From a virus, in IMG/VR virus record IMGVR_UViG_3300005541_000006, positions 1 to 45,275 of that record: 45,275 bases of DNA. One strand, 5' to 3'. A model generated the notes under the pieces. That model ran no database searches, was not told where the DNA came from, and saw only the letters and a program-made list of their open reading frames with translations. The translations under genes were made by a program, and so were the position numbers. Shown piece after piece: positions 6,582-41,294 of this stretch (positions are counted from its first letter, which is position 1; each line of letters opens with the position of its first letter).

Positions 6582-7847
6582 ATGTCCATCGGCAATAATG
6601 CCTCATCGTTCGGAGCTCAGGCGGAATACATTCGTCCGAAGCTTGAAATGCTCACGCTTGTATCGAGTATTCTCTACAAGCGCATCAACGTCCGCACGGA
6701 CGTAAAGCCAGTATCCACCCGCCCGGCGCGCATCCCCTTGCAGCCCCTCTCTCAGGGCGGAATGAAGATCGGCGCATTCGACGGGCAGGATTTGGGGCTC
6801 GGATCGGCTCCGGTTGAGACGTTCGGCTCTCTTTCCTGCGTTTCACTCCTTCAGCCTTCGCAGTACACATTCCTTGCGGAGTGGGCGAACGACGAGAACG
6901 TCAAGTCCATCCAGAACTTCGTCACGCTGACCCACGAACAAGCCCCCAAGGTGTTTGCGGGGTTCATCGACTCGCTTCTGGCGCTGTCGGACGGCTCAAA
7001 CACCCTGGACTCCATCGTGGCGACCACCGGAACCAACGGGCTGATCGTCAACAATGCTAACGCCTTCCAGGACCAGCAGCCTATCGACGTGTGGTCTTCT
7101 TTGGGCGGGACCTTTGAAGGTTCCGTAGTCGTCCAGTCGGTCGACATCGCGAACAACACGATTTGGCTCACCGGTCCCTTCCCGGTAGGTTCGACCGCCG
7201 GCTGGCTCCTGCTGGCTTCAGGATCCTCGGGCCAGGCCAACTCTGGTATCTTCGGGCTTCCCTACTACAACGTCGCCGGCAACACCGGCAACTTCATGGG
7301 CATCCAGCGCTCGACGTTCCCCGGCAAGTTCTCGACGCCCAACATCAACCAGGGCGGCAAAGCTATGACGCCGGCCAGTGTCCGCGCTCTGTTCGCTCAG
7401 ATCATCCTGGCCTTGGGTGAGGAACGGGCCAACTCCTCGGAGCTGGTCTGTCATGGGAATGTGGAAGCCCAGGCCGCCTGGGAAAACATCGCCCTGAACG
7501 TCCAAAGCGTTATCTGGAACCAAGTTAAGGGCGACGAAGCTCCCGACATGCTAACCAAGTCGGCGCCCACCATGATCGCCAAGCGCGAATTCCTGGTGAA
7601 TCCCCGAGCCCAGCCCGGCCGCATCGACTTCCTGCCGCTCAAGGAGTGGTGGAGAATCGAAACCCGCAAGGAAGACTACATCGAGGTCGAAGGCCAGACG
7701 GCTTTCCCGGCTTACGGCGCTTCCGGCGGTATCGCTTCGAGCGTGCTGTTCTACCTCGCGGCGGTTCTGCAATTCGGAACCGGCCAGCCGCGCTTGAACG
7801 CATATTATTCCAACTTCGCCATACCCACGGGGTACTTCGGGCACTAA
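6582..7847 (+). CDS. major capsid (coat) protein, 421 aa
   Basis: The coat protein builds the icosahedral shell, presumably with the HK97 fold. Length is close to P22 coat (430 aa). Visible features are a polar N-terminal arm, an R-rich stretch near residue 30-50 (YKRINVRTDVKPVSTRPARIP) and a long mixed alpha/beta body with no transmembrane or enzymatic motifs. SD AGGAG (6570-6574) is 7 bases before ATG 6582. The gene follows portal and scaffold, has its own structured leader and is closed by an intrinsic terminator, consistent with the most abundant virion protein. The assignment is by context and length, without a structure search. Confidence 0.85.
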   Translation: MSIGNNASSFGAQAEYIRPKLEMLTLVSSILYKRINVRTDVKPVSTRPARIPLQPLSQGGMKIGAFDGQDLGLGSAPVETFGSLSCVSLLQPSQYTFLAEWANDENVKSIQNFVTLTHEQAPKVFAGFIDSLLALSDGSNTLDSIVATTGTNGLIVNNANAFQDQQPIDVWSSLGGTFEGSVVVQSVDIANNTIWLTGPFPVGSTAGWLLLASGSSGQANSGIFGLPYYNVAGNTGNFMGIQRSTFPGKFSTPNINQGGKAMTPASVRALFAQIILALGEERANSSELVCHGNVEAQAAWENIALNVQSVIWNQVKGDEAPDMLTKSAPTMIAKREFLVNPRAQPGRIDFLPLKEWWRIETRKEDYIEVEGQTAFPAYGASGGIASSVLFYLAAVLQFGTGQPRLNAYYSNFAIPTGYFGH

Positions 7848-14200: not shown

Positions 14201-14655
14201 GGTGTCCCTGGAACATCCCGGCGAATGGCGCGGCGATGATCTATCGCGCCGTGGGTGGCCCGCTGACGACCGTCTTCTTCGTGGGTAACGGTTTGTATCC
14301 CGGGAAGTTGCCGGGAGGATGCGGAAACGCCTTTGCGCTCTGCGACAATAAGTTCACCGATGACTGTCTGGGCCAATTCTTTCCTTACTACACGACCTAC
14401 GCTTTTACGTCAGCGCAAGACGAACAGGGCTTGCAGCTCGGCGGCCAGAGGCATTTGTTGCAGTACCTTCAGTGGAACGCATCCGGCCAAGTAGGAAACA
14501 TCCGCGTGACGCTTTACGTCAACACGCTATCGAATCCGTGGCCGATCAAGACGGTTCAGCCGTTACTGGCCGATCCTACGCGCGATAACGAGTGGGGCGG
14601 CGGCCAGGCGAGCGGGCAGCGAGTGTTCGTGAAGTTCGAGGGGCTTCCGGCGTGA
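11281..14655 (+). CDS. large tail/stabilisation protein with tandem beta repeats, 1124 aa
   Basis: The N-terminus (GLVTNMPAMNLPAGVSPDCQ then FRPGSVFSRPAL) has the pattern of phage stabilisation proteins related in role to P22 gp10: a short strand, PxGxSPDxQ, then RPGSV.RP. At residues 190-420 there are about four copies of a beta repeat of the form T.AAHGL..G..V.L.GV, seen clearly near residues 270, 315 and 355. The C-terminal half is beta-rich and aromatic. It is far larger than gp10 (472 aa) and may combine stabilisation and tail-hub functions. Its TGA overlaps the GTG of the next gene. Confidence 0.65.
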   Translation: MFNVKGAVQVPLEIFGGLVTNMPAMNLPAGVSPDCQDMAFRPGSVFSRPALAKILATSVGVTTLTYAKSFTDNAGIVRNLYLDATGNLWVENLNASTMVMLAAVTPGSYAKSITAFGREYIAFSDGIHGTEVALQYDGTNLDRVTQDGPGAPPTVGNLVIPAVAMLSGGAGPSLTVISATTTNLVGGNYTRVTITLASGGLGLRPGDIVTITGNSNSTLNQTAPLAQVVSDTQIITYGFYPAFETGTGGSTSATSAYSISRANNIVTVNTAVPHGLQVGYQAQISGVDATAVPVAAISSIVINNVDSPGIATITTAAAHGLASGENIVLKGISSIVAAAISAVSRQGGIVTVTTSAAHNLVPGAVVSLSGVSDGTFNTTLVITNVTDSTHFVALQADSDATSSGGNVNLSWPIPDTVDPQVFEVLNVPSDTSFQVAINWSDGTWTDGHVYLPWDGTYYVFTVPSPTQFQYKQNGPDMQSTAIGTVTPVGQIAPGQHQLQVLFLTRQGYVTRPSPPVLWNANGGQYVTVSDIPTGPPNVVARILAFTGADGAYFFYIPVPAQVNGQIVSTATQINDNTTTSAILDFGDNTLFAALGISIPGNDLANMAILDSALGFAFYGDRLITYGQRNCVQNLLNMGFDGGTLPTLPGVPTGWSGTGTVMAGNFSQGVSVPSLTQSFYEDAYGAPIALANQQYTARCWSTMGATVKISSASTGFSATATIVAGPGGWGQADFSAKTPATIPPDLIIKLTAPGIVDDLSLIYTDDPFVNNEFLGSYVNNPEAFDNVSGVFGVEDTRKILTTEIIRGSLYVLTQDPGGRLHVIQNNGVTEPVGWSVNEVAANCGVMSPFASTVSQADDATAGGGEEWFAWMSFASARIFGGDQAYPISQEIQPNWNSINPAAWLTTWALNDPVANRIYFGLPIGNAPSGALATAPNKLYHVDYQQLYTAYEIAEANSIHISFTGKLTVRERSRKWCPWNIPANGAAMIYRAVGGPLTTVFFVGNGLYPGKLPGGCGNAFALCDNKFTDDCLGQFFPYYTTYAFTSAQDEQGLQLGGQRHLLQYLQWNASGQVGNIRVTLYVNTLSNPWPIKTVQPLLADPTRDNEWGGGQASGQRVFVKFEGLPA

Positions 14656-17504
14656 CCGCACCGATCATTATCGGCACACCCCCACCAACTGATCCATGGT
14701 CTGAGATTGTATCTCAGGGAGACAAGACAGCCATAGCCGGTCCTTATCTTGGCAGTAATGGGCATTTCTACCAAATAATTATAGTTTTCGACAACGCCAG
14801 CGGTCATTCCGATATCGGCGTAGCCAAGAGCACAGACGGCGGTGTCACATATTCGATTCTGGTAGCATCCGGGGCCACGACGATTGCCGCAAATAATGTC
14901 TCCGTCACCTATCGCGGATCAGGTGACGTAATCGATTGCCTTATTACGATTTCGACAGGCCCCAGCGCGTACAAACTTTCTACAGTCACGTTCAATATGT
15001 CCACGGAAGCGTTCGGGTCGCCGAACGATACTGGACTAACCCATAACGCAACCACCGGCAGCCCCATTGATTGGCTGATTGCAGTCAATGGATCGGGCGA
15101 ACAAGTTGTCGCTTATGACATTCAGAACGCTGGCGCGACGGCGGCTTCCGTTTACGCGATCCGCTATCATAGCGGATCGTGGAGTCCGGCGATTCTAGCA
15201 AGCGGCGCGACGACCTTGGCGTATCTGGACCAAGTTCTCACGGATGGCTCAGGCAACGTGCATATTCTCTGGTCCGATTGGCAAGCGGGTGGACCCGATG
15301 CAGGAGTCTTGCGGAATGCGATCTATGATTCAATTCTCACCGCCGGGGCGATCACATCGACGAATACGGCTATGGCGTCAGCGAATGCCGTCAATGATCG
15401 TGGCTATGGAGATCACGACTTCAAGCCTGGTATTTATGACGCCTCCACTGATTCTGTGGCGTGGCCCGTCGTTAAGCAGGTCCTATCTGGGGCTACCACC
15501 CTCCAGAACTCTTTTGGTGTGCTCATCGGTACGCCATCCAGCGCGCCGGTGTTCTCCTACGTAAATGCTTACTCGACGCCCAACCCAGTCAGCTATGTTA
15601 GCGGTTGGCCGTCGCTCTCTGGGAAAAGCGATGGTACCGAGTTCTCCTTAGTTTGGGCTGTGGACGGCCGGTCAAACGATCACCTGCCGAACGGACTAAC
15701 CTTGCAACGCTCTACGGCATCTACGCTCGCCGGAACTTGGAGCGCTCCCACCACATTCTACGACCCATCGGTTAATCCTCCGGTTGAAACAATCGCTTGG
15801 ATCGCGTCAGAACTGTTCTTTAATTGGTGCCGCTACGTTGGATCTTCTCAATCGTTCGCGGCGAATGTAGATATGGTGGTTTCGGGCGGATCTTCATTCA
15901 ACCCATTCGCATTCCCTCCTACAGTAACAGCGTCCACCCTCCAGCTCATCAAGCAAGTCGCTGGCGGCCCGGCTTCCCCAACGGATTTCATCGTCGCAGC
16001 GACCGGAGACACAGATTCCATTACCGGAGCCGGGACTGCGGGACCATCACCTGTCATTCCGGGAACGTATCAGCTTTCCGAATCTGGACCGGCGAACTAC
16101 ACGGGCGTATGGAATTGTGGGCCAGCGGTCATGCCGACGCCCACAAGCGTTGTGGTGCCTGCTTCTGTCAGTGCCAGTGCGCCGATCCAAGTCGGAACAG
16201 CCGAATACCGACCGCCGACTTCGGGAGTCGGGAAGTATTATTTCGAGATCGGCGCGAATCTCTACCAGGTGCTTGTGTCCGCGCAAGGCGGCTCCCCGCA
16301 AGGACTGATCGGTGTTTTCAAGCGCGCGACTTCAAACATTGGCGGATCGTGGGCGCTGATGAACGCTACAGCATCGCCGGACCAAGGCAACCAGTCCGGT
16401 TACTACAAATGCACGATTGACCCCACGGGAACGGTGATCCAGATCGCCTACCTGACCGTGGGCCAGCTCAACCTGAAGATTGCCAGCTACAACACGGTCA
16501 CGGACACATGGGGCACGCCGACAGCCGCGCTTACGGTTCCTTTGGCGCTCTCTACGTTCGCTTTCGTGCAGCGTCCTGACTTCACCTTTGTGCTAGTTGC
16601 CGGGGCCTCAGGGACGCTGTTCCCGCTGTACTACGCGCTGAACACTTCGGGCGCTTGGGGGCCGCTCACACTTCTCGCGTCGTCGAATCACATCGTGCTA
16701 GACGGTTTCCTCGACGCTTCAGGGACGATTTACATTCTGTTCAACTCGCCGACGTTCGGTTGTGCTTGTCAGCGTATCAGCCCGATCCTTCCGGCTTACT
16801 TGCTGGTATTCCCGCTGACTCCGGTGGCGAATGCGATCTCACTCACGCCCGGTGGCTATCCTTCGATCATCCAGTGGGGATCTTCGAGCTTCGCTATCGG
16901 CTTCATCGATACGGCAGGCCCAACACCCGGCGCGGCCCAGGTGTTCATCGGCCCGCTGACCGGACCGGTGTTGCCGGGCAATCTCGTTGTTCAAGCGCCC
17001 AGTGGCAGCGAAGTGCTCTCCTACGTGCGTCCGGTCCAGGGTAGCGACGGTAAACTCAACGTCTTTTATGCGGACACGGATTACACCGTACCCAAGATCC
17101 AGATTCACCAGAGCGTCTATGGAGGCTCGACATGGGGAGCGCCGACGACGTTCTATGACGCAATCACAAATCCTCCGACCAACCCGGCTACACCCGCTTC
17201 CGCTCAGGCGATCAACGCGATATCGGCAATTCAACTATCGCCGCAAGGCTGGACAGCGGCCACAGCGCTGAACACGGTAACCCCGACGTACAGCACCGGA
17301 GAATTTCTCGAGATGGGATCGGCCGGAAGCACGGCGGTCGTGTGCACTATCGTCAACACCTACAGCGGCCCGGTCGTTCCGATTCCCAGCCCGTGCGCGA
17401 ACGTGGTTCCGCAACCGTCGACCGATACGCAGTTTGAGCTGAGGCGAGTTTACGCGACGATGAAACCAGCGCCGCGCTTACCAATACGCGGAGGGTCCTC
17501 GTAA
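14652..17504 (+). CDS. tail fibre/receptor-binding protein with sialidase-like and prealbumin-like segments, 950 aa
   Basis: GTG 14652 is chosen because it overlaps the previous TGA (GTGA); an in-frame ATG at 14592 lies inside the upstream gene. The sequence is beta-rich, with repeated blade-like motifs such as AKSTDGGVTYS and WSAPTTFYDP, recalling BNR/sialidase-type beta-propellers. Residues about 427-486 form a distinct segment (LIKQVAGGPASPTDF ... LSESGPANYTGVWNC) like the prealbumin-like/SdrD_B-type modules of bacterial surface proteins. It probably contacts the host surface; the glycan or substrate cannot be told. Confidence 0.65.
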   Translation: MTAPIIIGTPPPTDPWSEIVSQGDKTAIAGPYLGSNGHFYQIIIVFDNASGHSDIGVAKSTDGGVTYSILVASGATTIAANNVSVTYRGSGDVIDCLITISTGPSAYKLSTVTFNMSTEAFGSPNDTGLTHNATTGSPIDWLIAVNGSGEQVVAYDIQNAGATAASVYAIRYHSGSWSPAILASGATTLAYLDQVLTDGSGNVHILWSDWQAGGPDAGVLRNAIYDSILTAGAITSTNTAMASANAVNDRGYGDHDFKPGIYDASTDSVAWPVVKQVLSGATTLQNSFGVLIGTPSSAPVFSYVNAYSTPNPVSYVSGWPSLSGKSDGTEFSLVWAVDGRSNDHLPNGLTLQRSTASTLAGTWSAPTTFYDPSVNPPVETIAWIASELFFNWCRYVGSSQSFAANVDMVVSGGSSFNPFAFPPTVTASTLQLIKQVAGGPASPTDFIVAATGDTDSITGAGTAGPSPVIPGTYQLSESGPANYTGVWNCGPAVMPTPTSVVVPASVSASAPIQVGTAEYRPPTSGVGKYYFEIGANLYQVLVSAQGGSPQGLIGVFKRATSNIGGSWALMNATASPDQGNQSGYYKCTIDPTGTVIQIAYLTVGQLNLKIASYNTVTDTWGTPTAALTVPLALSTFAFVQRPDFTFVLVAGASGTLFPLYYALNTSGAWGPLTLLASSNHIVLDGFLDASGTIYILFNSPTFGCACQRISPILPAYLLVFPLTPVANAISLTPGGYPSIIQWGSSSFAIGFIDTAGPTPGAAQVFIGPLTGPVLPGNLVVQAPSGSEVLSYVRPVQGSDGKLNVFYADTDYTVPKIQIHQSVYGGSTWGAPTTFYDAITNPPTNPATPASAQAINAISAIQLSPQGWTAATALNTVTPTYSTGEFLEMGSAGSTAVVCTIVNTYSGPVVPIPSPCANVVPQPSTDTQFELRRVYATMKPAPRLPIRGGSS

Positions 17505-18079
17505 TGCCCTTGTCGTTGAAGAACCTGGCATACTTCAAGAATCTTCAGTCTTGGAGCGCGGAGGCTGGTCAGAAGCTCACCGAGATGATTTCAGAGATCG
17601 CTCAAGGTGTGAATAACCAGGAACAGCAGAACAACTCGAACGCGACCGGCCAGCCGCAACCACCGCCCGCGATCAACTCACTGAACGTCACAGCATCGAA
17701 CGGCCATTTCCAAGTAGCGATTAACCATGAGGGTGCGCAGTTCTACCGTGGCATCCGCTACTTTGTTGAGCATTCCGCAACATCGCAGTTCGCGGATCCG
17801 CATATAGTGGACATGGGAACCAGCCGCAACATGAACCTGTTTCTGGGAAACTCGACGCGCTACTTCCGCGCCTACGCGAGTTATGGAAGCTCGCCGCCCG
17901 GACCGGCTGCCTACCACGGCGGCAAGCTGCAGCCGCGCCCGGTGACAGGAGGCGGGGCGGTTCCAGGGCCATCCTTCGCGCCATCGGAGGGCAGTGGCAC
18001 GGGCACGGCAGGCCAAGGCTTGAGCGGTCCCGGACCGGTTCCATTCCGCACCAAGAACGGAGCTCCGCCGGTAAGATGA
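17504..18079 (+). CDS. tail protein with fibronectin-III-like domain, 191 aa
   Basis: Residues 15-50 are helical and Gln/Asn-rich, possibly a trimeric coiled coil. Residues 57-135 have the strand pattern of an FN3-type domain (INSLNVTASNGHFQVAI, YFVEHSATSQF, RYFRAYASYGSSPPGPAAY). The last 50 residues are Gly/Pro-rich and disordered. It is coupled by TAATG to the large fibre gene and overlaps the GNAT gene by 4 bases. It is probably a fibre-associated or tail attachment protein. Confidence 0.6.
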   Translation: MPLSLKNLAYFKNLQSWSAEAGQKLTEMISEIAQGVNNQEQQNNSNATGQPQPPPAINSLNVTASNGHFQVAINHEGAQFYRGIRYFVEHSATSQFADPHIVDMGTSRNMNLFLGNSTRYFRAYASYGSSPPGPAAYHGGKLQPRPVTGGGAVPGPSFAPSEGSGTGTAGQGLSGPGPVPFRTKNGAPPVR

Positions 18080-18462
18080 TTCGCGCGCTCCAGCCTTCCG
18101 ACATCCCGAGCCTGCGGGCGATGTTCGAGCAGAGTGGTCTGGAGTACGCCTTCCCGGAACTTGGCGGCCCGCTGATGGAATCGGTGCTGGTGGTAGTCGA
18201 CCAGAACGATGCGCCGGTCGCGGCGGTCGCGGCGGAGCGTATCGTTCAGCTCTACCTGCTGGTCGATGAAACGCTTGGACCTGTGGCGAAGTTCCAAGCC
18301 ATCCGCGAGATGCACAAAAGCATGGCTACGGCATTGAGGGATAAGGGTTATAATGGCGCTGAGGCGTTCGTTCCTCCCGAACTAGAGAAAAGCTTCGGGA
18401 GGCGATTGATGCGTACTTTTGGGTGGTGCAGGAACTGGAATAGTTTCTCTAGGAGCTTCTGA
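18076..18462 (+). CDS. GNAT-fold acetyltransferase-like protein, 128 aa
   Basis: The N-terminus IRALQPSDIPSLRAMFEQSG and the strand VLVVVDQNDAPVAAVAAERI are typical of GNAT proteins; the C-terminal FGRRLMRTFGW and NW motif are shared by short phage GNAT-like proteins that sit among tail genes. The acetyl-CoA pyrophosphate loop (Q/RxxGxG/A) is not evident, so it may be a degenerate, structural member. ATG 18076 overlaps the previous stop by 4 bases. Confidence 0.6.
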   Translation: MIRALQPSDIPSLRAMFEQSGLEYAFPELGGPLMESVLVVVDQNDAPVAAVAAERIVQLYLLVDETLGPVAKFQAIREMHKSMATALRDKGYNGAEAFVPPELEKSFGRRLMRTFGWCRNWNSFSRSF

Positions 18463-18466
18463 AAAT

Positions 18467-18937
18467 ATGAGGCCAGCAGATAAGGGAGCACAGACCCGAG
18501 GGATGACATTGCTGGAACGCATCGATTTCCGCTTGATTCTAATTCCCTTCATGGAATGCTGGCTAATAGACGTAAGGCATGACAGTGATGGCTACCCTCT
18601 TATACAAGTGGGTGGGAAGACAAAGCGTGCTCATCGGGTTGTTTACGAAGAGTTCGTGAAGCCGATACCATTGGGACTCCAATTGGATCACCTTTGCCGT
18701 AACCGGGCATGTGTTAATCCTCGGCACCTTGAGCCCGTAACTGATTTAGAAAATCTGCTCCGATCACCACTTACGCCTGTCGGAAAATCAACATGCAAGC
18801 GGGGTCATCCGTTGGTGCCTAATCCGTACCCATGCCGACAGGGAACTAAATACAAGCGTATTTGCTTGGTGTGTGAACGCGCAAGGAATCGGGCTGCTGC
18901 GCTGCGGGCGAAGCAGAGGAGGGTTGCCAATGGCTAG
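18467..18937 (+). CDS. HNH endonuclease (free-standing homing type), 156 aa
   Basis: HNH nucleases cut DNA with a beta-beta-alpha-metal site. The core is present: RAHRVVYEEFV, then LQLDHLCRNRACVNPRHLEP (His-Asn-His with CxxxxC zinc-ligand pattern), followed by a second Cys group (CKRGH, CLVC). ATG 18467 has SD AGGAG at 18451-18455; ATG 18503 is an alternative. The gene sits between a GNAT-like and an ejection-protein gene, is visibly more A/T-rich than its neighbours and breaks an otherwise structural block, all signs of an inserted homing endonuclease. It overlaps the next gene by 8 bases. Confidence 0.85.
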   Translation: MRPADKGAQTRGMTLLERIDFRLILIPFMECWLIDVRHDSDGYPLIQVGGKTKRAHRVVYEEFVKPIPLGLQLDHLCRNRACVNPRHLEPVTDLENLLRSPLTPVGKSTCKRGHPLVPNPYPCRQGTKYKRICLVCERARNRAAALRAKQRRVANG

Positions 18938-19481
18938 AGGCTCTGACGCGGCTAAGACGGCGGCTACCAGCGCCCAAAACCTCTCGAACCAGTACGCCGG
19001 CAACGCTGGAGCCGGGTTCGCCACGCTCATGCCCGAGCTCGAAACCGAAGCCGCGCATCCTGCTGGGTTCAATCCCACCGATCTAGCGCGCATGGAAACC
19101 GGCGCGCAGCAGACGGCAGGAGGATCGCAGGCGGGTGCGGTCGGGCAAGGCGCATTGCTTGGCGCGCGGACCAAGAACCCCGGCGCGGCTCCCGCAGCTA
19201 TCGCGCAATCGGCGCGGCAAGCCGGCCAGAATCTCTCGAAGAACGCGCTGGGCATCCAGACCGAGAACGCCGCATTGCGCGAGAAACAGCAGCAGGCGGG
19301 GTTGCAGGGCTTGCAGGGGCTTACAGGTCTTGAAACTGGCGCGGGAATCAACGCATTGGGTGAAGTGGCTCCGAATGTGAACGCGAACACGAACGCGGAA
19401 AACGCCAGCTGGGACTGGGCTAAGGATATTTTGGACCCGACACTGCAAGCGGCCGGGGGAGCGGCTAAAGCTTTCGCTTAG
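18930..19481 (+). CDS. internal virion/ejection-type protein, 183 aa
   Basis: ATG 18930 has a strong SD (AGAGGAGG, 18915-18922); the frame extends upstream but that part lies inside the HNH gene. The protein is Ala/Gly/Gln/Asn-rich and helical, with phrases such as QTAGGSQAGAVGQGALLGAR and AALREKQQQAGLQGLQGLTG. This low-complexity helical character and the position are like P22 ejection protein gp7 (229 aa). No enzymatic motif is visible. Confidence 0.6.
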   Translation: MARGSDAAKTAATSAQNLSNQYAGNAGAGFATLMPELETEAAHPAGFNPTDLARMETGAQQTAGGSQAGAVGQGALLGARTKNPGAAPAAIAQSARQAGQNLSKNALGIQTENAALREKQQQAGLQGLQGLTGLETGAGINALGEVAPNVNANTNAENASWDWAKDILDPTLQAAGGAAKAFA

Positions 19482-21002
19482 ATGGCGCAATTCGACACAT
19501 CTCCGATTGATCCGAACGACCCGCGACTGGCTCGGCCACTCGTTCCTCCGCCAACTCTGCCCACGGCCAACGGAGCGCCCACGCAGCCCCAGGAAACGAT
19601 GCCCGTGGCTCTGCCGAAAGCCAAGAGCCCGCAGCAGACGCAGGGGCTTGCGTTCCCTCAGGTCGGCGTTCCGGGGCGCACAGCGGCTCAGGAGAAGCTT
19701 GCCAACACCCAGGAGATGGGATCGGGTATCTCGCGCATCCACAACCCGGTCCTGAAGGGACTGGCGACGGCTGGCGATATTGCCGAAGGCCTTTTCGCTC
19801 CGCGTGCGGAGCAGCTTACGCCGGGCACCGAAGGCAACCACGCGCTCCGGCTGGCGCAAGCGCAGAACGCGGTTAAGGGCGAGGAAGCGCAGCAGACGGC
19901 GCAAAGCGAAGCGGCGCTTCGGGGAGCGGAAGCGCGGCACTACAACGCAGAGTCGAGCCAGTTGGAGAATCCAGGCGAAAAACCAGCGGCTAACGAGGTC
20001 GAACTCTTCCAGAAAGATCCTGAAGCGTTCGCGCGCTATCACGATGCGGTCAAAAAAGCCGCAGCAACCAAGGAACCTCAGCTGATCCGGTCTGAAGGCG
20101 CGACTGGAAATATTATCGGGGTAATCGATCCGGAACTGAATTTTCACTCGGCCGCCGACCCGAATCTCGACCCACAATTGAAAGCGATCATGGATGCGTC
20201 ACAGGAAAAGCCACAAGCGCCGAGGATCGAGAAGGGTGAGGACGGAACCATCTACAGCGTGGACCTCGACCCGGCGACAGGAAAGCCCACGCTCACAACC
20301 CTGGTCGAAGGCAAAGGCAAGAAACCGCAGCTGAGCGCAGAAGAGCGCGGCTACATGAAGGCGGCAGGCGGGAACCCTGACGACGAGAATACATGGTCTC
20401 CGCAGATCATGCAGAAGTACGCCAATCTGAAGCGCGACAAAACCGCGGAAAGCAACATCGGGACTTGGCAGCTTGAGGAGCAGAACGGCAAAGGCGTGCT
20501 GTTCAACTCCAAGACCGGAGAAACCCGGCCAGCTCCCGAGGGTCTGGCGAAAGCTGGAACCGCTGAGAAGAACGAAGCCAAGTCCGCGCCGATGAAGGCG
20601 GCCTTGAGTTACGGGCAGAGCTACCTGGAAGGCGGGAAGTTCACGGGCCCCGGTGACGAAGCGCTTCAGGAGAAGTTCTTCGAGTTGGCGAAGCCGAGCA
20701 CCGGCTTTCGAATGACCGCTCCCCAGATGGAGATGTTGATGCAGTCCCGAGCGGCCATGGAAGGCATCGGGGCGCGGATCAAACACAACATCGACCCGAA
20801 CGCTCCGTGGTTCGGTGACGTGCAGCGCAAGAACATCGTTCAGACGATGCGCGACATTGCCAAAGCGAACAACATTGATATCGGGGAGGCCGGCGGCGGT
20901 GGTGGTGGGGGCCACGTCATAGAAATCAACGGAAAGCGTATGCAATACAAGGGTTCCGGCGACACCGCCGACATTCAGAACTATCAGGAGATTAAGAAGT
21001 AA
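19482..21002 (+). CDS. internal virion/ejection-type protein, 506 aa
   Basis: Follows the previous gene without a gap. The first 80 residues are Pro/Gln-rich; the centre is helical and charged (ALRGAEARHYNAESSQLE); near the C-terminus are a Gly7 run and the strand HVIEINGKRMQYKG. Length and place match the second P22 ejection protein (gp20, 471 aa). Function in DNA delivery is inferred from synteny only. Confidence 0.55.
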   Translation: MAQFDTSPIDPNDPRLARPLVPPPTLPTANGAPTQPQETMPVALPKAKSPQQTQGLAFPQVGVPGRTAAQEKLANTQEMGSGISRIHNPVLKGLATAGDIAEGLFAPRAEQLTPGTEGNHALRLAQAQNAVKGEEAQQTAQSEAALRGAEARHYNAESSQLENPGEKPAANEVELFQKDPEAFARYHDAVKKAAATKEPQLIRSEGATGNIIGVIDPELNFHSAADPNLDPQLKAIMDASQEKPQAPRIEKGEDGTIYSVDLDPATGKPTLTTLVEGKGKKPQLSAEERGYMKAAGGNPDDENTWSPQIMQKYANLKRDKTAESNIGTWQLEEQNGKGVLFNSKTGETRPAPEGLAKAGTAEKNEAKSAPMKAALSYGQSYLEGGKFTGPGDEALQEKFFELAKPSTGFRMTAPQMEMLMQSRAAMEGIGARIKHNIDPNAPWFGDVQRKNIVQTMRDIAKANNIDIGEAGGGGGGGHVIEINGKRMQYKGSGDTADIQNYQEIKK

Positions 21003-22304
21003 GTGGCTGACGATCTACACTTGCCCCCAGGAGCGAAGTTGGTAGACAGCGGAATGGCTCTTCCACCTGGGGCAAAACTCGTTCAGAATCAAAACGGGGG
21101 CACCCCTCCAAGCACGATGGAGCGGATCGGTAAAGCCGCTTCCCAATTCGTCGGTACGTACCTGTCCGATATGAACCCGATGAGCACGGTTCGCGCGGTC
21201 CTGCATCCATTCGATACGCTCAAGCAGTCATTCGGTCCCGGAGCCTGGGTAACGCCACAGGAAGGCGTGAAGCGCGGCGCAGAAATGCCCATCCCTGAGA
21301 TGGCTGGTCACGTCGCTGCATTGACCACCGGGGCAGCGCTTCCAGGATTAGTCGGGAAGGGCATGCGCGCGGCGGCTGAGCCAGTTGCCGAAAGCGCGAT
21401 CAATGTTAGGCCAATCGACCGCGCTATGGGTCGCCGTCCGGGAGCTGCAGTTCTGGACGAAACTACGGGCGTCCGTCCTGAAACCGTGCGTAGGCAAGCA
21501 CAGGCAAAACTAGGAGATATCAACAATCAGCTTGAGGGCGTTGTGAATCGCTCTAATGCCCCCGTTGATATCACTCCAGCGCGGGGAACACTAGGAAAAG
21601 CGGAAACTACGGCGCGAGCCCGCAATCAGGTGAAGGAAGTTGGTCAACTGGCTCCGATGCAGGAGCACCTAGCAGTGCCACAGCCGGGGTTTCAGGGCAG
21701 TGTTACGCAGCCGCCCACGCCGACGGTGCAGAAGCCATCCGCAGTGCTGGGTCCGAACGGCCAGCCCATCATGGTTACTGCTCCGGGGAACACGCCACCC
21801 CCAGTAATCTCCAGCGTTCAAACTCCACGTGGGGCGCTTAACCTGAAACGGGGATTCGGCGAGGAGTTCGTGCATAATTGGAACCCTGAAACCATGAGAG
21901 GGGCCAAAGGCACAGCGGCACAGACTTACCATTCATTGGCTGAGTCGCTGCACAATGCCGTGCCAGAGTCTGCGGAATTGGACAAGCGAGCCACAAGCCT
22001 GATACCTGTGGCGCAACGCGCGGAAGTATTGGAGCGTGCCCCTGGGACCGCCCAGCAGATCGCGCGTAAGTTGGTCGCCCCGACCGGGGCACTAGCGGGA
22101 GGAATCGGGGGCTACTACGCTGGAGGCGTGCCGGGGGCTGTTGCCGGAATGGTGGCTCCAGTGGTGCTGGGTTCTCCTACGGCTCAGATGATCGCCGCGC
22201 GTGCGCTGAACCTTGGAAGTAAGGCACTGAAGTCCAAACCGGCAGCACTTGCTGGGCGCGCAACTCCAATCATTAACGCGACACGCAGAGAAGAAGAACA
22301 ATGA
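21003..22304 (+). CDS. internal virion/ejection-type protein with membrane-active C-terminus, 433 aa
   Basis: GTG start directly after the previous TAA. The N-terminus has two copies of the motif LPPGAKLV (residues 6-13 and 20-27), typical of short phage or virulence N-terminal repeats. Residues 96-125 and 360-400 are Gly/Ala-rich hydrophobic segments (GALAGGIGGYYAGGVPGAVA) of glycine-zipper type, suited to insertion into membranes during DNA injection. Position is that of P22 gp16. The ATG of a short downstream frame overlaps its stop. Confidence 0.6.
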   Translation: MADDLHLPPGAKLVDSGMALPPGAKLVQNQNGGTPPSTMERIGKAASQFVGTYLSDMNPMSTVRAVLHPFDTLKQSFGPGAWVTPQEGVKRGAEMPIPEMAGHVAALTTGAALPGLVGKGMRAAAEPVAESAINVRPIDRAMGRRPGAAVLDETTGVRPETVRRQAQAKLGDINNQLEGVVNRSNAPVDITPARGTLGKAETTARARNQVKEVGQLAPMQEHLAVPQPGFQGSVTQPPTPTVQKPSAVLGPNGQPIMVTAPGNTPPPVISSVQTPRGALNLKRGFGEEFVHNWNPETMRGAKGTAAQTYHSLAESLHNAVPESAELDKRATSLIPVAQRAEVLERAPGTAQQIARKLVAPTGALAGGIGGYYAGGVPGAVAGMVAPVVLGSPTAQMIAARALNLGSKALKSKPAALAGRATPIINATRREEEQ

Positions 22305-22831: not shown

Positions 22832-24742
22832 ATGAAACTGCTGATAGCCTTCTTTCTTTCCGCCATCGCGCTGCTTGCGCAGAACACCGGCCCGTGCAGC
22901 CGTGTGACCAACAGCGCTACAAGCGCGCAGGTTCTCAGCGCGGCGAGCACCGGCCGGACGCCTCCCTGCACTTGGGTAGCCGCCGGCAGCGGCGGCGTCG
23001 GGAACGTGGTCGGGCCGGCGTCGGCCACCGACAGCGCTATCGTGCTCTACAATGGCACCACCGGCAAGCTCATTAAGAACTCGAACTGCACGGTGGATAG
23101 CACCGGCGTAGCAACGTGCCTGGGGTACAAAAGCAGCGATTCTTCGCACAGCGGAGCGGCACTGTTTGATGGGATGACTTCAGGGGGCGTGTCGATCGCG
23201 GCGGCGGACGTCGCGGGCACGGCTATCGTTTACGTGCTTCCGAGTACCAATGGAGCAGGAGGCCAGATTCTTTCCGATGGCGGCGTAACGACCTGCCCAA
23301 CACTCGCGGCTGGCTTTCCAACCGTTTGCCACCTGCTGACCTGGACCGCACCGCCTTCTTCTGGCGGTTCCGGCAACCTGCCGAATCAGACTGTCTCGGG
23401 CTGCGGGGTGGAATACACCAGCGGCTTAAATATCACGGTTGGGCTTTGCAATTACAGCATCTCTGGCGCTTCCTATACCAGCCCGATTGCCAATCTCACG
23501 TTTACGACCGCCGATCCGAGCAACCCGCGTATCGACGCCGTAATCGTGGACAACACCGGAGCGGCATCGATCTTGACCGGCACTCCCGCAGCGACTCCGC
23601 TCGATCCGGCGATTGACCCTTCGACGCAGCTTGCTCTCACGTTCATGCTCATCCCGGCGATGGGCACCGCACCGCAAGGCGTGGTATCGACCCTGCTCTA
23701 CGATGAGAACGTCGAGTGGACCTGCACACCAACCACGCATATCGTCTGTAACTCAACGAACAATCCGTACCACGGAACTTACGACATTGAAGCTACGGCG
23801 GCAGTGCTCGGGAACAACTTCACGCTGGTCAAGCCAGCATCGGGCACAGTCGATCTCTCGACGCAGAACAATCTCGTGTTCTATATTCGCTCGAAGGCTC
23901 AATGGGCCACCGGCAACGGCGGGGCGAATGCCGCGCGCTTCTTGAATATCTTCTGGCTGAACGGCGCGGCACAGGTAGGCAATACGATTGTATTGCGCGA
24001 CGGCGCTTTCGGCTTCAATAGCGCGACGACCGGAGCATATCAGCAGATCAGCATTCCCACGGGCTTGTTCCAGACCGGCAGCAATGTGGTGACCACGCTC
24101 AAGGTGCAAGTCTCGGGCAACTCGGGAAGCTCCAGCATCGGCTGGTACATAGACGAAGTGAGCCTGCAAAGCGGATTCAACCCACCCGCCGTTCCTTCGA
24201 CGCTGATGAACTTCCGGGGCACTTGGAACGGCACGACGGCGTACAACGTAAACGATACGGTCGTAGCGAGCGGCATCGGCTACGTGGCGCTCACGCAGAA
24301 CACCAACGTGGCTGTGAGCACTTCGGGGACCTGGGCGAAGCTCGCGACATCAGGCGGCACGACCAATCAGAACATCAGGACAATCGGCGCTAGCTTCGGC
24401 AGCTTCCAATCCGGGGCCACAGCGCTCAGTGCGGCGGCAACCGCCTGCGTGCCTACTTACTTCGCAGGCACGATTCAGGCTGTTGAGATTATCAGCAACG
24501 TCCCGGGCTCGGCGATTATCGACGTTCAGACCGTGGCGCATTCATCCTGGACCGGCACGGCGTCGGCCAGTTCGATTACAGCGTCGGACATCCCGGCTCT
24601 ATCGAGCGCGGCCAGCTACACGGACACTACCCTGACCGGATGGAATAAGACAATCACGGCGGGCACGGACGTCTGTTTCGTGATGACCAGCCCGACGACG
24701 GTAGCGGGATTGAGCATCACGGTAAAGGTCAGTGCAAACTGA
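22832..24742 (+). CDS. tail-fibre-like carbohydrate-binding protein with signal peptide, 636 aa
   Basis: ATG 22832 is preferred over GTG 22826 because AGAGG (22822-22826) is correctly spaced for it. The N-terminus MKLLIAFFLSAIALLAQ is a canonical Sec signal peptide. Residues 60-130 match fibre-type sequence (ATDSAIVLYNGTTGKLIKNS). Residues about 290-450 look like a jelly-roll carbohydrate-binding domain ending in SIGWYIDEVSLQSG. Residues about 460-510 have the aromatic pattern of CBM5/12 chitin-binding modules (FRGTWNGTTAYNVNDTVVA ... GYVALTQNTN). Many cysteines would suit an oxidising, extracytoplasmic location. Domain calls are by pattern. Confidence 0.7.
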   Translation: MKLLIAFFLSAIALLAQNTGPCSRVTNSATSAQVLSAASTGRTPPCTWVAAGSGGVGNVVGPASATDSAIVLYNGTTGKLIKNSNCTVDSTGVATCLGYKSSDSSHSGAALFDGMTSGGVSIAAADVAGTAIVYVLPSTNGAGGQILSDGGVTTCPTLAAGFPTVCHLLTWTAPPSSGGSGNLPNQTVSGCGVEYTSGLNITVGLCNYSISGASYTSPIANLTFTTADPSNPRIDAVIVDNTGAASILTGTPAATPLDPAIDPSTQLALTFMLIPAMGTAPQGVVSTLLYDENVEWTCTPTTHIVCNSTNNPYHGTYDIEATAAVLGNNFTLVKPASGTVDLSTQNNLVFYIRSKAQWATGNGGANAARFLNIFWLNGAAQVGNTIVLRDGAFGFNSATTGAYQQISIPTGLFQTGSNVVTTLKVQVSGNSGSSSIGWYIDEVSLQSGFNPPAVPSTLMNFRGTWNGTTAYNVNDTVVASGIGYVALTQNTNVAVSTSGTWAKLATSGGTTNQNIRTIGASFGSFQSGATALSAAATACVPTYFAGTIQAVEIISNVPGSAIIDVQTVAHSSWTGTASASSITASDIPALSSAASYTDTTLTGWNKTITAGTDVCFVMTSPTTVAGLSITVKVSAN

Positions 24743-24891
24743 TGGGACGCTTAGGACACTTCGGCAAGTGGGCACGTAGTTCTCTTGCACCTAGTTTCTT
24801 TCGGCAGAAGGGGCAGGGCGTCAAGGATTTGGGGCGACCGGCCATCTATTTGCAGCCCACTTCAAATGCCATCGGATTCTCATGCCCCTAA
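24742..24891 (+). CDS. small hypothetical protein, 49 aa
   Basis: ATG 24742 overlaps the preceding TGA (TGATG). The 49-residue product (GRLGHFGKWARSSLAPSFF...) is basic and unlike its neighbours. No SD beyond coupling is seen. The frame fills most of the 180-base gap before the next signal-peptide gene; it may be real or only a spacer. Confidence 0.35.
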   Translation: MGRLGHFGKWARSSLAPSFFRQKGQGVKDLGRPAIYLQPTSNAIGFSCP

Positions 24892-24922
24892 TTGTGGCAC
24901 AAATACCCCTCGGAGTCAACCC

Positions 24923-26344
24923 ATGAAACTACTCATCGCGGTCATCCTCTCTTGCCTCTTGTCGGCCCCATCGTTCGGTGCGTTTAACTCGACGGCCATC
25001 TGGCGCACCAGCACAGTGTCAGGCTCAGGCACTAACGGCGGCGCGTATGACCCCGGAGTCGCCTCCCCTGGCACCGATGAGAGTACCGGCGCGGGCGTTG
25101 CGATAACGGTAACCCTCGCCACGGGCACAACTGGGACCTGTTCCCCGGTATGCAGCGCCACAACTCACGGGCCGGGCAATTTTATCAACATTGCCAGCGG
25201 TTCAGGATGTACCACGGGCACCTTTGAAATTCTGAGCCAGGCTGCGGGCACGATCACGGTCGATCACTCGATGGGTAGCGCAACGGATGCCTGCGTGGGC
25301 AGGATCGGCGGCCCCTTGGCTAGCCCAGTAACCGCAGTAGGGCAGATGGTCGGAGGAAATACCGTCTGCATCAAAGCCGATGGCACCTACACTGTAAGTT
25401 CTCAGATGGTTCCACCCGCTGGAACGGTCAATGCTCCCACCACGCTCCAGGGCTACACAAGCACTTGCCCAACAAATGATGGAGGTCAGGCTACCCTCGC
25501 CTCTGGAACCACAAGTTTCTACCTAATCAATGGCCCAGCATACCAGAACATTTTCAACCTTATCTTAAACTGCGCCTCGCAAACCGGCGCGAGTGCTCTT
25601 ACGATAGCCGGGGATGAGAGCAACCTGAATAATGTACTGATAGAAAACTGCCCGGCCAATGGTTTTTACATCGCCTCTGGCAACGGCCACACGATCACGA
25701 ATTCAAGAGTGACCGGGGGAACCGGGTGCAACACCGCGTTCTATTTTTCTGGTTCGGTCGCCCTCACCGGGGTAGTGTCAGACACGAATGGCTGTCTTGG
25801 TTTTTATGTTGGCAGCGGCGTCAATTTTGTTTGTACATTTTGCATCGCGGCCAATAATACGGGAGCCACCACGGACGGCTTCCAATTCGCGAATGCGAAT
25901 GCTGTTGGCGTAGTGGTCACCAATTCGGCTTCCTATGGCAACGGGCGCGATGGTTTCCGTTTTACATCCGTCCAGGGCTTACCAGGATCTACGCTGAAGA
26001 ATAACTATGCTTATGGAAATACAGGCAAATCGTTCAATTCCTCGGCGGGTTCTGTCACCCTGAACACGATGCACGTGGATTATAATGCCTACACTTCGGG
26101 GTCACTGAACAACATAAGCGCCGGGCCGCATGACGTGACGCTCACTGGCGACCCAACCGTAGCCGGGGCCAGCCTGAACTTCAGCCTGAACGAAACAGCA
26201 GGCGCAGGAGGAGCGCTTCGGGGCACGGGCTTCCCCAATGGCTCTTTCTTCGGCAGCACGGCGTACACAACGATTGGCCCGATACAGCCGCTGGTCAACA
26301 GCACGGCTACTTTGGGCGGCGGGGCGAGCGCGTTCGTACAATGA
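24923..26344 (+). CDS. right-handed beta-helix spike-like protein with signal peptide, 473 aa
   Basis: ATG 24923 has GGAG at 24912-24915, and gives the N-terminus MKLLIAVILSCLLSAPSFG, a Sec signal almost identical at the start to that of the 22832 gene. Residues about 190-380 show the short repeated strands with Asn/Gly turns of a parallel beta-helix (NNVLIENCPANGFYIASGNG, HTITNSRVTGGTGCNTAFYF, NSASYGNGRDGFRF), as in pectate lyases and phage tailspikes. No catalytic residues can be asserted. The stop overlaps the next ATG (ATGA). Confidence 0.7.
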   Translation: MKLLIAVILSCLLSAPSFGAFNSTAIWRTSTVSGSGTNGGAYDPGVASPGTDESTGAGVAITVTLATGTTGTCSPVCSATTHGPGNFINIASGSGCTTGTFEILSQAAGTITVDHSMGSATDACVGRIGGPLASPVTAVGQMVGGNTVCIKADGTYTVSSQMVPPAGTVNAPTTLQGYTSTCPTNDGGQATLASGTTSFYLINGPAYQNIFNLILNCASQTGASALTIAGDESNLNNVLIENCPANGFYIASGNGHTITNSRVTGGTGCNTAFYFSGSVALTGVVSDTNGCLGFYVGSGVNFVCTFCIAANNTGATTDGFQFANANAVGVVVTNSASYGNGRDGFRFTSVQGLPGSTLKNNYAYGNTGKSFNSSAGSVTLNTMHVDYNAYTSGSLNNISAGPHDVTLTGDPTVAGASLNFSLNETAGAGGALRGTGFPNGSFFGSTAYTTIGPIQPLVNSTATLGGGASAFVQ

Positions 26345-26688
26345 AACACTTAATCCTACTCGCGATCTTTTCCGTGGCAGCGTGGGGCCAGTGCCCCGCA
26401 TCCGTCACCACGGCGAGCGGAACGGTGTGCTTGGTTGGCCCACAAGGCCCACAAGGACCCGCCGGACCCCCAGGGCCGCCGGGCCCGGCCGCACCCGCGT
26501 CTAATCTGCCGATCACGCTGATGCCGGATGGAAGCGTGCAGATCAAGGCGAATGTGACGATCACCGGCTCAATCACGACGGGATCTGGCAGCGCCGCGCC
26601 TACGGTCATCACGATCACGCGCACGGACGGCACGACATGCCACGTGACATTCTCGCCCACGAACTCTATGTTGTGGACATGCCCATGA
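26341..26688 (+). CDS. collagen-like secreted protein, 115 aa
   Basis: N-terminal signal peptide MKHLILLAIFSVAAWGQ is followed by a short collagen-like stretch of Gly-X-Y triplets (GPQGPQGPAGPPGPPGP, residues 33-49), which forms triple helices in phage and bacterial fibres. The C-terminal 60 residues are beta-rich with repeated Thr (VQIKANVTITGSITTGSG) and two Cys. It could trimerise and act as a fibre cap or adhesin. ATG and stop codons overlap both neighbours by 4 bases. Confidence 0.65.
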   Translation: MKHLILLAIFSVAAWGQCPASVTTASGTVCLVGPQGPQGPAGPPGPPGPAAPASNLPITLMPDGSVQIKANVTITGSITTGSGSAAPTVITITRTDGTTCHVTFSPTNSMLWTCP

Positions 26689-29600
26689 AGCGTCTTGCCA
26701 TTCTCGCCCTCTTCACCCTTGGCTTGCAGGCGCAAGTCACGATGGTTGTCCAGACCAACCCCAAGCCGAATTGGGGACCAACGCAGACATGGCGCACGGG
26801 CGCGGCCAACGGACTCGACGGAACGGCTTCGACCGGCAACACTGGCTATACGTGGTCCTGCACGGCTTACGATCCAGGCACCGGCAGCACCATCTGCCCG
26901 CTGTCGTTCTCAAGCACGACGGCATCTAAGCCGACCGTAACCGGCGTGGTGGCCGGAGACTACTCAATCCATCTCTGCGACGGCGCGGGCATGAACTGCG
27001 TCACCACGCACGTAGGCGCGGTGGACTTCGATGCAGCTACGGGCATCGTCAAGACGCACAACACCACAGCGGATAAGGTTTTTGGTCCGATGCTCGCTAT
27101 CGGGCAGAATCCGTGGAATCTAGAGGACGAACGCTCCACGACGATGATGGGCTTGCAGTGGACGCTGCTCAACACGACGCAGCCCTACAACTCGTACTCG
27201 GATTACAACCCATCGTGGGCGAACGATCAGACCGGAACGGTGAGTTGGACCTGGAATGGAAAGAACTCGACCCAGATAGGCGGCGCGGCTTGCACAACGC
27301 TTAATACCTCGATAACGGCCACCTCAACTTCGATCATCGTGACTGATGCGACCTGCCTCGATCTAAGTTCACTCCCCAGTGTTCCAACAGCAATCACCCT
27401 CCAGGCGAATGTAAATAGCGCCGTGCAGGAGCAGATTCGTATTTGCAGCACGACCGGCACGACAGGGATGCAGACGCTCGGAGTATGCTACGACGGGCGC
27501 GGACCGGTCGCAAGCGGCTCATACTATGTCGCGGCACAGTCTTGGAGTTCTGGAGCGGTCGTAGGGCAATCCCTTGTCAAGGGCAGCGGCACGAGCTTCC
27601 TGTCAACCATCTGTCCTGGCGGCGCTGGACTCGCTGGACCGGTTCCTTACTCTACAGGCACGGTCACGGTCACAGCAGGCTCCCCCACGATCACCGGAAC
27701 CAGCACGAACTGGACCACAGGCAACGGAGTTGTGGCGGGCTATGCGATCCAAGTTTACGGAACAACCGGAGGCGGAGCAACGAACTTCACCTTCATCGCC
27801 CTCATCAATACAGTTGGAAGCACCACCTCGATAACAGCCAGCCGGAACTATCCGAGCACCGCAGACAACGGAACCTTCTCTTACAAGGTCATCATTCCGT
27901 TCTATCGCTGGATCGTGAGCCACTACACCCGCGGCACGCCCTACAGCGGCGACGCTCTTATTGACTGGGGCACAACCACTTGTGAAGACGACACGCATAG
28001 CTTCGTCTCATTCGTCGGCGTCATTGGACACGATCAGGCTTCGCTGAACGGCCAAACCTTCACCGGCGAGAACTATGCCTACATGGATAATGCCAACTCG
28101 AACTATCCCGACACCTGGGGCTTTTACTGCCCCGCTTGCGCGTTCCGCGCGATGTGGTATCGGGCCGGGATTGTCCAGTATCTTCAGATGGCGAACACCG
28201 TGAGTAAGTTTTATCCGCGTTTCCCTGGATTCGGAGACGGCGGCGTGGGCGGGTACGGAGACATCCTCTACGTGGGCAGCGGGATTATCGATTCCACCGT
28301 GTCTTACATTCTCAATGGCACCCCCGCAGTAACGGACCTTCGGCCTTCTTGGAACGCGCCCACGTTTGACTCAAATCCGGCTTCCTGCAACCTTACCGAC
28401 ACCAGGTCGCAATCTTACGGTGAAGGGCTAGTATTTCTTGGCGCTCTCTACGACCCCGACACCAGCTATTGGCAACCGCTGTTCCGCAGTCGTATGGCGA
28501 CCATCAACGCCTGGGACAACATGTGCGCCGGATCCGGTGGAGGCGTCCACACCAATTCATTCGAGAATCAGCTTTATTGGAACGCAGATTATTCACAAGT
28601 GACCCTGACGAACGGCAGCACAGCGGGTACCGGCACAGGGCTTCCGTCAAGCGTTTGTAGCGGCGCGGATTCCGGCACGGTGACGGTTACGGCGGGCTCC
28701 GCGGCGGTAACGGCCACCAGCGGAACATTCACTTCCGGCGTCAATGCCATCGTGATCCAGGGCCGCTACTTCATGTTCAGCCGGACCGGCTCGACCACGG
28801 GGAACCTCGCGGCGCTGTGGCCCGGTTCGTCCGGTTCCTATTCCTACATGACCGTGAACTATAACGAAGTTGCAGCCACATCCATCATGGCGTTCGGGAA
28901 CAGCAATGATGACCCGGCTTTAGCGAATGAATACGTCTGCACCTGGAACAGCGCCACGTCGATCACGCTCGATAGAAACTTCAGCGGGAATTCGAACACC
29001 TATTACGAGTTCCAGACCAATACCGGATCGGAGGCAGCCGGTCTTACACAGCAACCCTTCATGATGGGCATAAAGGCATGGGTGACAAACCAGGCGGCTC
29101 CGCTCGATTCGACCCTGAGCCTGAACAACGGGACTATTCGCGGCAACGTAGCTACCTGGGTGGCAACTTACGGCTATGACAATCAGTCCGCCCTAAACGG
29201 CACGCAGGCGATCTACTGGGCGCGGAACTGCACGTTCTGCGAATCGGGCGGCGCTAACACCGGGTCGTTCGACTACACGACCCCTATTATGCGCGCCGGG
29301 TTCGCGGGATCGCCCAACTACACCGTCCAGGAGCAGCGGGAAATAAACCAGGAAGGCTTCAACGGCTTGGTGCAGTGGTACATCTCGAATGCAAACTCGA
29401 CCAACAAAGCAATCGTAGACTATCTTTACGGCGCGCTTTGGGGCAGCACATCGCTGGATAATTCATCCGTCAGCGCCTTCACAGATTCTTATAGCGTAGG
29501 GAATGTACCTGGCTACTTGAACCTGAGCAACGGCTATCTTGCGGCTGGCAAGTACCCTGGCTTCTTCTTCGGTATGGGCATGGCGCATGTGTGGCCGGCG

Positions 29601-29738
29601 CTCAGGCAATGCCAGGTAGTAGGCGGCGTGGTGCCTGTGGTTAGCGGCGTGGTGCAGTGTTTGGCATCGGCTTCGACCAACGGCGGAACGGTGACCTCTG
29701 GGACCGTCACTATCAGCGGAGGCGCCCAAGTACAATAG
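26685..29738 (+). CDS. very large secreted beta-rich protein, 1017 aa
   Basis: ATG 26685 overlaps the previous TGA and gives the signal peptide MKRLAILALFTLGLQAQ; an in-frame upstream ATG (26637) lies inside the gene before. Residues about 55-110 resemble an Ig/PKD-like domain (YTWSCTAYDPGTGSTICPL ... GDYSIHLCDGAG). A beta module beginning GTVTVTAGSPTITGTSTNWT (about residue 325) recurs as GTVTVTAGSAAVTATSGTFT (about residue 665). Between them is an aromatic, helical-looking block (FRAMWYRAGIVQYLQMANTV). Possibly a glycan-active spike or surface protein; no catalytic site is identified. Confidence 0.6.
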   Translation: MKRLAILALFTLGLQAQVTMVVQTNPKPNWGPTQTWRTGAANGLDGTASTGNTGYTWSCTAYDPGTGSTICPLSFSSTTASKPTVTGVVAGDYSIHLCDGAGMNCVTTHVGAVDFDAATGIVKTHNTTADKVFGPMLAIGQNPWNLEDERSTTMMGLQWTLLNTTQPYNSYSDYNPSWANDQTGTVSWTWNGKNSTQIGGAACTTLNTSITATSTSIIVTDATCLDLSSLPSVPTAITLQANVNSAVQEQIRICSTTGTTGMQTLGVCYDGRGPVASGSYYVAAQSWSSGAVVGQSLVKGSGTSFLSTICPGGAGLAGPVPYSTGTVTVTAGSPTITGTSTNWTTGNGVVAGYAIQVYGTTGGGATNFTFIALINTVGSTTSITASRNYPSTADNGTFSYKVIIPFYRWIVSHYTRGTPYSGDALIDWGTTTCEDDTHSFVSFVGVIGHDQASLNGQTFTGENYAYMDNANSNYPDTWGFYCPACAFRAMWYRAGIVQYLQMANTVSKFYPRFPGFGDGGVGGYGDILYVGSGIIDSTVSYILNGTPAVTDLRPSWNAPTFDSNPASCNLTDTRSQSYGEGLVFLGALYDPDTSYWQPLFRSRMATINAWDNMCAGSGGGVHTNSFENQLYWNADYSQVTLTNGSTAGTGTGLPSSVCSGADSGTVTVTAGSAAVTATSGTFTSGVNAIVIQGRYFMFSRTGSTTGNLAALWPGSSGSYSYMTVNYNEVAATSIMAFGNSNDDPALANEYVCTWNSATSITLDRNFSGNSNTYYEFQTNTGSEAAGLTQQPFMMGIKAWVTNQAAPLDSTLSLNNGTIRGNVATWVATYGYDNQSALNGTQAIYWARNCTFCESGGANTGSFDYTTPIMRAGFAGSPNYTVQEQREINQEGFNGLVQWYISNANSTNKAIVDYLYGALWGSTSLDNSSVSAFTDSYSVGNVPGYLNLSNGYLAAGKYPGFFFGMGMAHVWPALRQCQVVGGVVPVVSGVVQCLASASTNGGTVTSGTVTISGGAQVQ

Positions 29739-41130: not shown

Positions 41131-41294
41131 TGAACGCGCTAGGGTCTATTCTTGATGCCTTGTTGAAGTGCTCCAAATGCGGCGCAAGGTGCCGTCTGAG
41201 AGATGCGATTCCCTGTATCGGCTCAGACGGCGAAGACGGCACTGGGTTTGGATGTCCCATTCCAGATTGCGGAGGATCATTACAGGATGCCTAA
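41130..41294 (+). CDS. small Cys-rich zinc-ribbon protein, 54 aa
   Basis: ATG 41130 overlaps the previous TGA. Six Cys in 54 residues (CSKCGARC at 14-21, C29, CPIPDC at 42-47) point to one or two zinc sites. The stop overlaps the start of the peptidase gene by 8 bases. Function unknown. Confidence 0.6.
   Translation: MNALGSILDALLKCSKCGARCRLRDAIPCIGSDGEDGTGFGCPIPDCGGSLQDA

Follow-up and report, generated by a model that had tools for sequence, protein, structure and literature searches.

The window analysed here, the whole stretch of 45,275 nucleotides from IMG/VR record IMGVR_UViG_3300005541_000006, is the 45-kb genome of a soil phage, with a portal gene at 2671 and a terminase gene at 43197. 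A cassette of four consecutive genes, referred to as f1 to f4, lies between ejection-like and lysis-like genes, and all four open with predicted signal peptides. Predicted signal-peptidase sites are marked by a slash in the following list of features.

924–1607, plus strand: fibre-like gene 924, with a 37-residue hydrophobic N-terminal extension and a close cysteine pair in its body
6582–7847, plus strand: major capsid protein, the query for finding relatives and the host
11281–14655, plus strand: long tail protein conserved in all relatives, with a nozzle-like position
14652–17504, plus strand: gene 14652, 950 aa, lacking a signal peptide and adhesin-like by eye, with a C-terminus that is conserved in related genomes G001 and G002
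18930–22304, plus strand: three consecutive cysteine-free genes (18930, 19482, 21003), ejection-protein-like by position and conservation
22832–24742, plus strand: f1, 636 aa, predicted signal peptide (LLA/QN, about A16/Q17), then a fibre body
24743–24922, plus strand: non-coding gap between f1 and f2, with no convincing promoter or terminator
24923–26344, plus strand: f2, 473 aa, predicted signal peptide (SFG/AF, G19/A20), beta-helix-like body
26341–26688, plus strand: f3, 115 aa, predicted signal peptide (AWG/QC, G16/Q17), collagen-like stretch
26685–29738, plus strand: f4, 1017 aa, predicted signal peptide (LQA/QV, A16/Q17), body of ~1000 aa
29758–30362, plus strand: two small membrane-protein genes (29758 and 30084), holin/spanin-like by size and position, directly behind the cassette

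The four cassette frames open at the coordinates of the initial annotation, and their N-termini match those quoted there. The last three genes overlap end to start, and sequences resembling ribosome-binding sites precede 22832 and 24923; for f4 the gene caller chose an in-frame ATG upstream, at 26637. Promoter and terminator scores in the gap between f1 and f2 are at background level. PHROGs and Pfam searches gave no family match for the three ejection-like genes in front of the cassette.

The bodies of the four proteins had been described as fibre-like, beta-helical, collagen-like and large beta-rich. The f1 body contains a shared phage-fibre domain (about residues 180–455) and a tail-fibre stretch (458–510), and its tail-fibre stretches match phrog_5073 (E 2.8e-6). 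The beta-helix of f2 and the short Gly-X-Y stretch of f3 are recognisable through matches that stay under the cut-off (PF13229, E 4e-4, and PF01391, E 1e-3, respectively). Against PDB sequences f2 gives weak matches, among them the beta-helices of mannuronan C5-epimerases at E 1e-3. The f4 body has no family match and weak matches only in the PDB sequence search; its single homologue, L014, has a signal-peptide-like start, and a structure model built from this two-sequence alignment was useless (pLDDT 28). The possibility that f3 is a lipoprotein was ruled out, as the lipobox is absent.

Relatives retrieved from IMG/VR with the window capsid protein span 40–95% identity in that protein. A capsid profile run against 84,980 bacterial and archaeal genomes found eight loci, seven on Acidobacteriota contigs and the eighth on a contig labelled Bacteroidetes; four of the seven Acidobacteriota loci have large signal-peptide genes inside the virion module. 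Among the four tested Acidobacteriota genomes with kin of the capsid protein, three encode VKOR and all four encode DsbA-like Thioredoxin_4 proteins. On these genomic grounds, the window phage probably infects an acidobacterium with the capacity to form disulfide bonds. On the host contig of one prophage-like locus, the VKOR and Thioredoxin_4 matches fall within a single 569-aa reading frame, a fusion (G014:C36:367-1413).

The initial annotation had assigned Sec signal peptides to all four proteins, and our scorer agrees in each case. This scorer is a home-made tool of the von Heijne type, with a hand-entered matrix; it calls OmpA, PhoA and MalE positive and GroEL and LacY negative, and in phage P22 it flags none of 38 genes, the tailspike gp9 having no signal peptide. 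Among the 49 non-cassette genes called in the window it flags one, the small membrane protein at 30084. In related genomes, the scorer flags 20 of 33 cassette genes when run from the called start (23 when any nearby start is allowed) versus 6 of 314 other genes of at least 100 aa (p = 7e-19); of those six, three turn out to be cassette genes from overlapping loci. The homologues of f1 in L002 and L004 and those of f2 in L015, L016 and L017 likewise have predicted signal peptides. In the f2 family, identity is 34% in the signal peptide versus 62% in the mature part; L015 retains the mature start AFNSTAIW, of which L016 and L017 have a recognisable form, the signal ahead of it having changed. 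The first cassette gene of a sister clade behaves in the same way, with a mean identity of 27% in the signal part versus 57% in the adjoining mature domain. Fast-diverging putative signals ahead of kept mature starts are typical of cleaved signal peptides.

The proteins had also been noted to contain several cysteines each, and the predicted mature chains indeed hold 12 (f1), 12 (f2), 4 (f3) and 20 (f4), an even number in all four. Across the related phages, cysteine makes up 1.90% of cassette proteins versus 0.42% of the upstream virion genes, a difference seen in 13 of 13 genomes and a 4.5-fold enrichment over other virion genes. Of 41 cassette proteins, 36 have an even mature count (p = 4e-7); several of these proteins receive the same four cysteines from the N-terminal domain of the sister clade, with unrelated bodies behind it. 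Within the podophage family, the count is even in 26 of 27. Other genes of the same genomes split into 70 with even and 83 with odd counts (70/153 even). Cysteines also come and go in pairs inside the f1 body domain: f1 shares one pair with L002 that L004 lacks and a second pair with L004 that L002 lacks, and phage-fibre homologues of this domain that are not exported have no more than a single cysteine. An even cysteine count has previously served as a proxy for DsbA substrates (PMC7678975). Cysteine-rich mature parts with even counts point to folding with disulfide bonds in an oxidising compartment, and the cassette proteins are very probably exported and disulfide-bonded.

These observations weigh against reading the hydrophobic N-termini as uncleaved segments of ordinary cytoplasmic tail fibres that, for example, pack into the tail. 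Such a reading draws on the tail-fibre position and domains of the genes and on the fact that tail fibres are normally cytoplasmic, but the charge, the hydrophobic core and the cleavage motif are all of the signal-peptide type, the N-termini diverge faster than the mature domain and keep their physical character alone, and the enrichment and even number of cysteines indicate an oxidising compartment. We regard it as improbable.

The trait recurs. In about a dozen related podophages, the tailspike position behind the ejection-like genes is taken by signal-peptide genes, whose bodies are unrelated to those of the window and differ from phage to phage; one sister phage has a 91% identical capsid protein and no cassette gene in common with the window. 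The initial annotation had proposed to look for the same four-gene order in relatives; a fixed set of four genes was not confirmed, conservation extending to the cassette as a class and not to its individual genes. The trait nevertheless reaches beyond what that annotation had seen: the window cassette belongs to a wider group of fibre genes, very probably exported and rich in disulfides, in podophages whose hosts are probably Acidobacteriota. The exchange of bodies between near relatives, itself well supported, resembles that of host-range parts. Rapid turnover of this kind, together with the host-like ends of the signals (AQ/GQ) and the sister phage just mentioned, could also be expected if the cassette consisted of recently captured host genes for secreted proteins, carried as useless passengers; yet genes of the same class occupy the same position wherever the region is present in related genomes, their fibre domains are shared with virion proteins of other phages, and the sister N-terminal domain is conserved across genomes, which makes this origin very improbable.

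In the sister clade, the first cassette gene encodes a predicted signal peptide, a conserved N-terminal domain of ~115 residues with four cysteines (hereafter the N-domain), and a variable, unrelated body. A scan with the N-domain of the sister phages returned twelve loci, two of them near-identical. In every one the domain belongs to the gene directly behind the ejection-like genes, has a signal peptide or a hydrophobic, export-like segment ahead of it, and that gene is followed by zero to four further signal-type genes. The bodies include a beta-helix in L052 (PF13229, E 4e-12, over the cut-off) and a PF12708 match at the cut-off in L041; those of L048 and L051 have no family match. In L045 (about 7917), L047 (7917) and L051 (about 7857), a second hydrophobic segment and a conserved loop, YERDWPRSTWRG, lie in frame before the spike signal. 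This double hydrophobic start is an unusual topology for an exported protein. In L041 (11955–12791) and L042 (5817–7097), a cysteine-poor fibre-like gene without a signal sits between two signal-peptide cassette genes, the one in L041 being homologous to gene 924 of the window.

A structure model of the N-domain (pLDDT 65) has its best matches among solved structures in tailspike and tail parts of P22, Sf6, Pan3 and Pam1, at Z-scores of 5.1–6.4, a range (below 8) that may reflect a common arrangement. The individual superpositions are as follows.

7ukj_C: Z 6.4, 2.8 Å over 86 residues
7sg7_C: Z 6.2, 4.1 Å over 91 residues
2vky: Z 5.9, 4.1 Å over 92 residues
2xc1_B: Z 5.1, 3.2 Å over 85 residues

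A Foldseek search with the same model gave nothing significant (E > 0.1), profile–profile comparison with seven P22-type head-binding domains gave no match, and a Pfam search of the N-domain found nothing. The modelled fold bears a weak resemblance to the head-binding domain of P22/Sf6 tailspikes. A pattern scan of the 84,980 bacterial and archaeal genomes did not find the N-domain, and a phage partner therefore fits it better than an anchor on the host. In the window, f1 to f4 have no BLAST match to the N-domain, which was not seen in the sub-clade formed by the window, G001 and G002, the G001 contig ending before the cassette. A conserved C-terminal tag that could act as a docking signal was likewise not seen on cassette proteins. 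With no docking domain recognisable by sequence, f1 to f4 could be exported virion fibres or exported free proteins.

The closest parallel in known phages is the P22/Sf6-type tailspike (Lederbergvirus gp9, Sf6 gp14, APSE P36), which, like the cassette, is encoded behind the ejection genes; in APSE-2, injection protein gp16 is followed by tailspike gp9. P22-type tailspikes combine a conserved N-terminal domain with a variable, often beta-helical body, as does the first gene of the sister clade. The differences are equally plain: P22 gp9 and the family members compared have no signal peptide, whereas the proteins of acidobacterial phages have one, are rich in cysteine, carry a four-cysteine N-domain (in the sister clade) and do not match at the sequence level. 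Unlike P22-type tailspikes, the window's own cassette shows no head-binding-like domain by sequence. A literature search, run largely outside subscription papers, turned up no account of tail fibres or tailspikes with signal peptides.

The INPHARED collection of cultured phages holds no relatives of the major capsid protein, f1, f2 or the N-domain at E 1e-5 or 0.01, and four matches at E values up to 10 were dismissed as chance. A cassette of the same kind is nevertheless present in Tunturi_1 (PP887698), a cultured podophage isolated on Tunturiibacter psychrotolerans (PMC11924767). Its gp12 to gp17 are six consecutive virion-module genes with hydrophobic signal-like starts, four of which pass the scorer; they are annotated as hypothetical, tail spike protein or virion structural protein, and their mature cysteine counts are 20, 10, 20, 2, 1 and 32. 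The Tunturi_1 cassette resembles that of the window in its signal-like starts, its place in the virion module and its high, mostly even cysteine content, and differs from it in having other bodies and in lying before, not behind, the ejection-like genes. The paper describing the phage mentions neither signal peptides nor mass spectrometry (PMC11924767). No such signal-peptide fibres were found among the scored coding sequences of two further acidobacterial isolates, Tunturi_3 and Tunturi_4, and not all phages of Acidobacteriota therefore share the trait.

The export proposed in the initial annotation is upheld by the recurrence of the trait, by signals that diverge ahead of kept mature starts, and by the enrichment and even number of cysteines; its suggested roles in virion trapping, superinfection block and biofilm degradation found nothing in their support. 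Between the two fates it had envisaged, we favour virion parts matured in the periplasm over secreted adhesins, because of the gene position, the exchange of modules behind the N-domain in sister phages and the weak, though consistent, modelled match of that domain to head-binding domains of podophage tailspikes. Our leading interpretation, held with modest confidence, is that the cassette products are tailspike or fibre proteins that would be exported by Sec, disulfide-bonded in the periplasm and brought together with virions at lysis. We judge it somewhat probable that at least one of them attaches to virions. The fuller proposal, that this phage lineage makes its receptor-binding tailspikes outside the cytoplasm and that virions are armed when lysis mixes in the periplasmic stock, is more tentative and falls slightly short of an even chance.

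The sequence of events would be the following. Late in infection, the cassette would be translated with the virion module; Sec would export its products, signal peptidase would cut them, and host enzymes of the VKOR/DsbA type would form their disulfides. The mature proteins may then accumulate in the periplasm until lysis breaks the cell open, upon which the first spike at least would dock on the tails of released particles, and the remaining cassette proteins could serve as additional fibres, adhesins or enzymes that act on glycans. The course as far as disulfide formation draws on the evidence given above, whereas storage and docking are inferred. Assembly of tailed phages takes place in the cytoplasm, and it is there that fibres are normally both produced and attached; for this reason the docking of exported spikes on released virions has, to our knowledge, no precedent. 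P22 tailspikes can join completed particles in vitro and so conclude assembly, which makes arming at lysis plausible.

The main competing interpretation is that the products are secreted, non-virion adhesins or polysaccharide-acting enzymes, produced while infection is under way, that alter the envelope or the surroundings of the cell, where they might open glycans, mask receptors or aid spread, the receptor-binding part lying elsewhere, in the window at 14652. The evidence for export suits this interpretation equally, the accessory genes differ freely in how many there are and of what type, and the epimerase-like matches of f2, the lack of a recognisable docking domain in the window cassette and the presence of gene 14652 lend it further weight. 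It accounts less well for phages such as G003 and L044, whose virion module shows no fibre-like gene other than the one with the signal peptide, for the sister gene at the tailspike position with an anchor and a variable body, and for an N-domain unseen in bacterial and archaeal genomes; moreover, no motif for outer-membrane export or anchoring was seen in cassette proteins. Exported superinfection-exclusion proteins and the glycan enzymes of soil viruses are phage-encoded proteins with signal peptides, and usually single accessory genes, whereas the cassette is a run of fibre-like genes that in relatives stands at the tailspike position. Free secretion seems to us a possible but less likely account of the cassette.

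If periplasmic maturation of virion parts is correct, a second compartment would be added to the assembly of tailed phages, which is taught as a cytoplasmic process. It would also suggest how phages of harsh, protein-degrading soils build tough adhesins, and the receptor-binding parts of many soil phages may be mistaken for proteins secreted by bacteria or for metabolic genes. As Tunturi_1 carries the same kind of cassette on a cultured Tunturiibacter host, ordinary proteomics can address the question.

Two further genes of the window are adhesin-like or fibre-like. Gene 14652, which was seen only in the window sub-clade (the window, G001 and G002), is a candidate for a conventional receptor-binding part. 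In the window (14652–17504), L018 (18051–20834) and L019 (18651–19931), the gene pairs a variable front with a conserved C-terminal end, FELRRVYATMKPAPRLP; a tail protein encoded by an acidobacterial prophage (L054, about 15853) ends in a weakly similar way. In gene 924, the hydrophobic extension and the cysteine pair are missing from the homologues in G001, G002, G008 and G005, which begin directly with the fibre-like domain; in one of these phages the capsid protein is 95% identical. The N-terminus of gene 924 is not scored as a signal peptide, owing to the length of the stretch that follows its hydrophobic core; it is export-like or anchor-like and may be an anchor, and the gene is possibly a natural experiment inside the window.

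Elsewhere in the window, a gene at 41203–42054 matches papain-family (C1) cysteine proteases (PF00112, E 3e-8, over the cut-off). A small GNAT-like acetyltransferase gene (18076–18462) lies in the virion module between the tail and ejection-like genes, and such a gene occupies the same place in most relatives and in Tunturi_1, being annotated as an acetyltransferase in the Tunturi phages.
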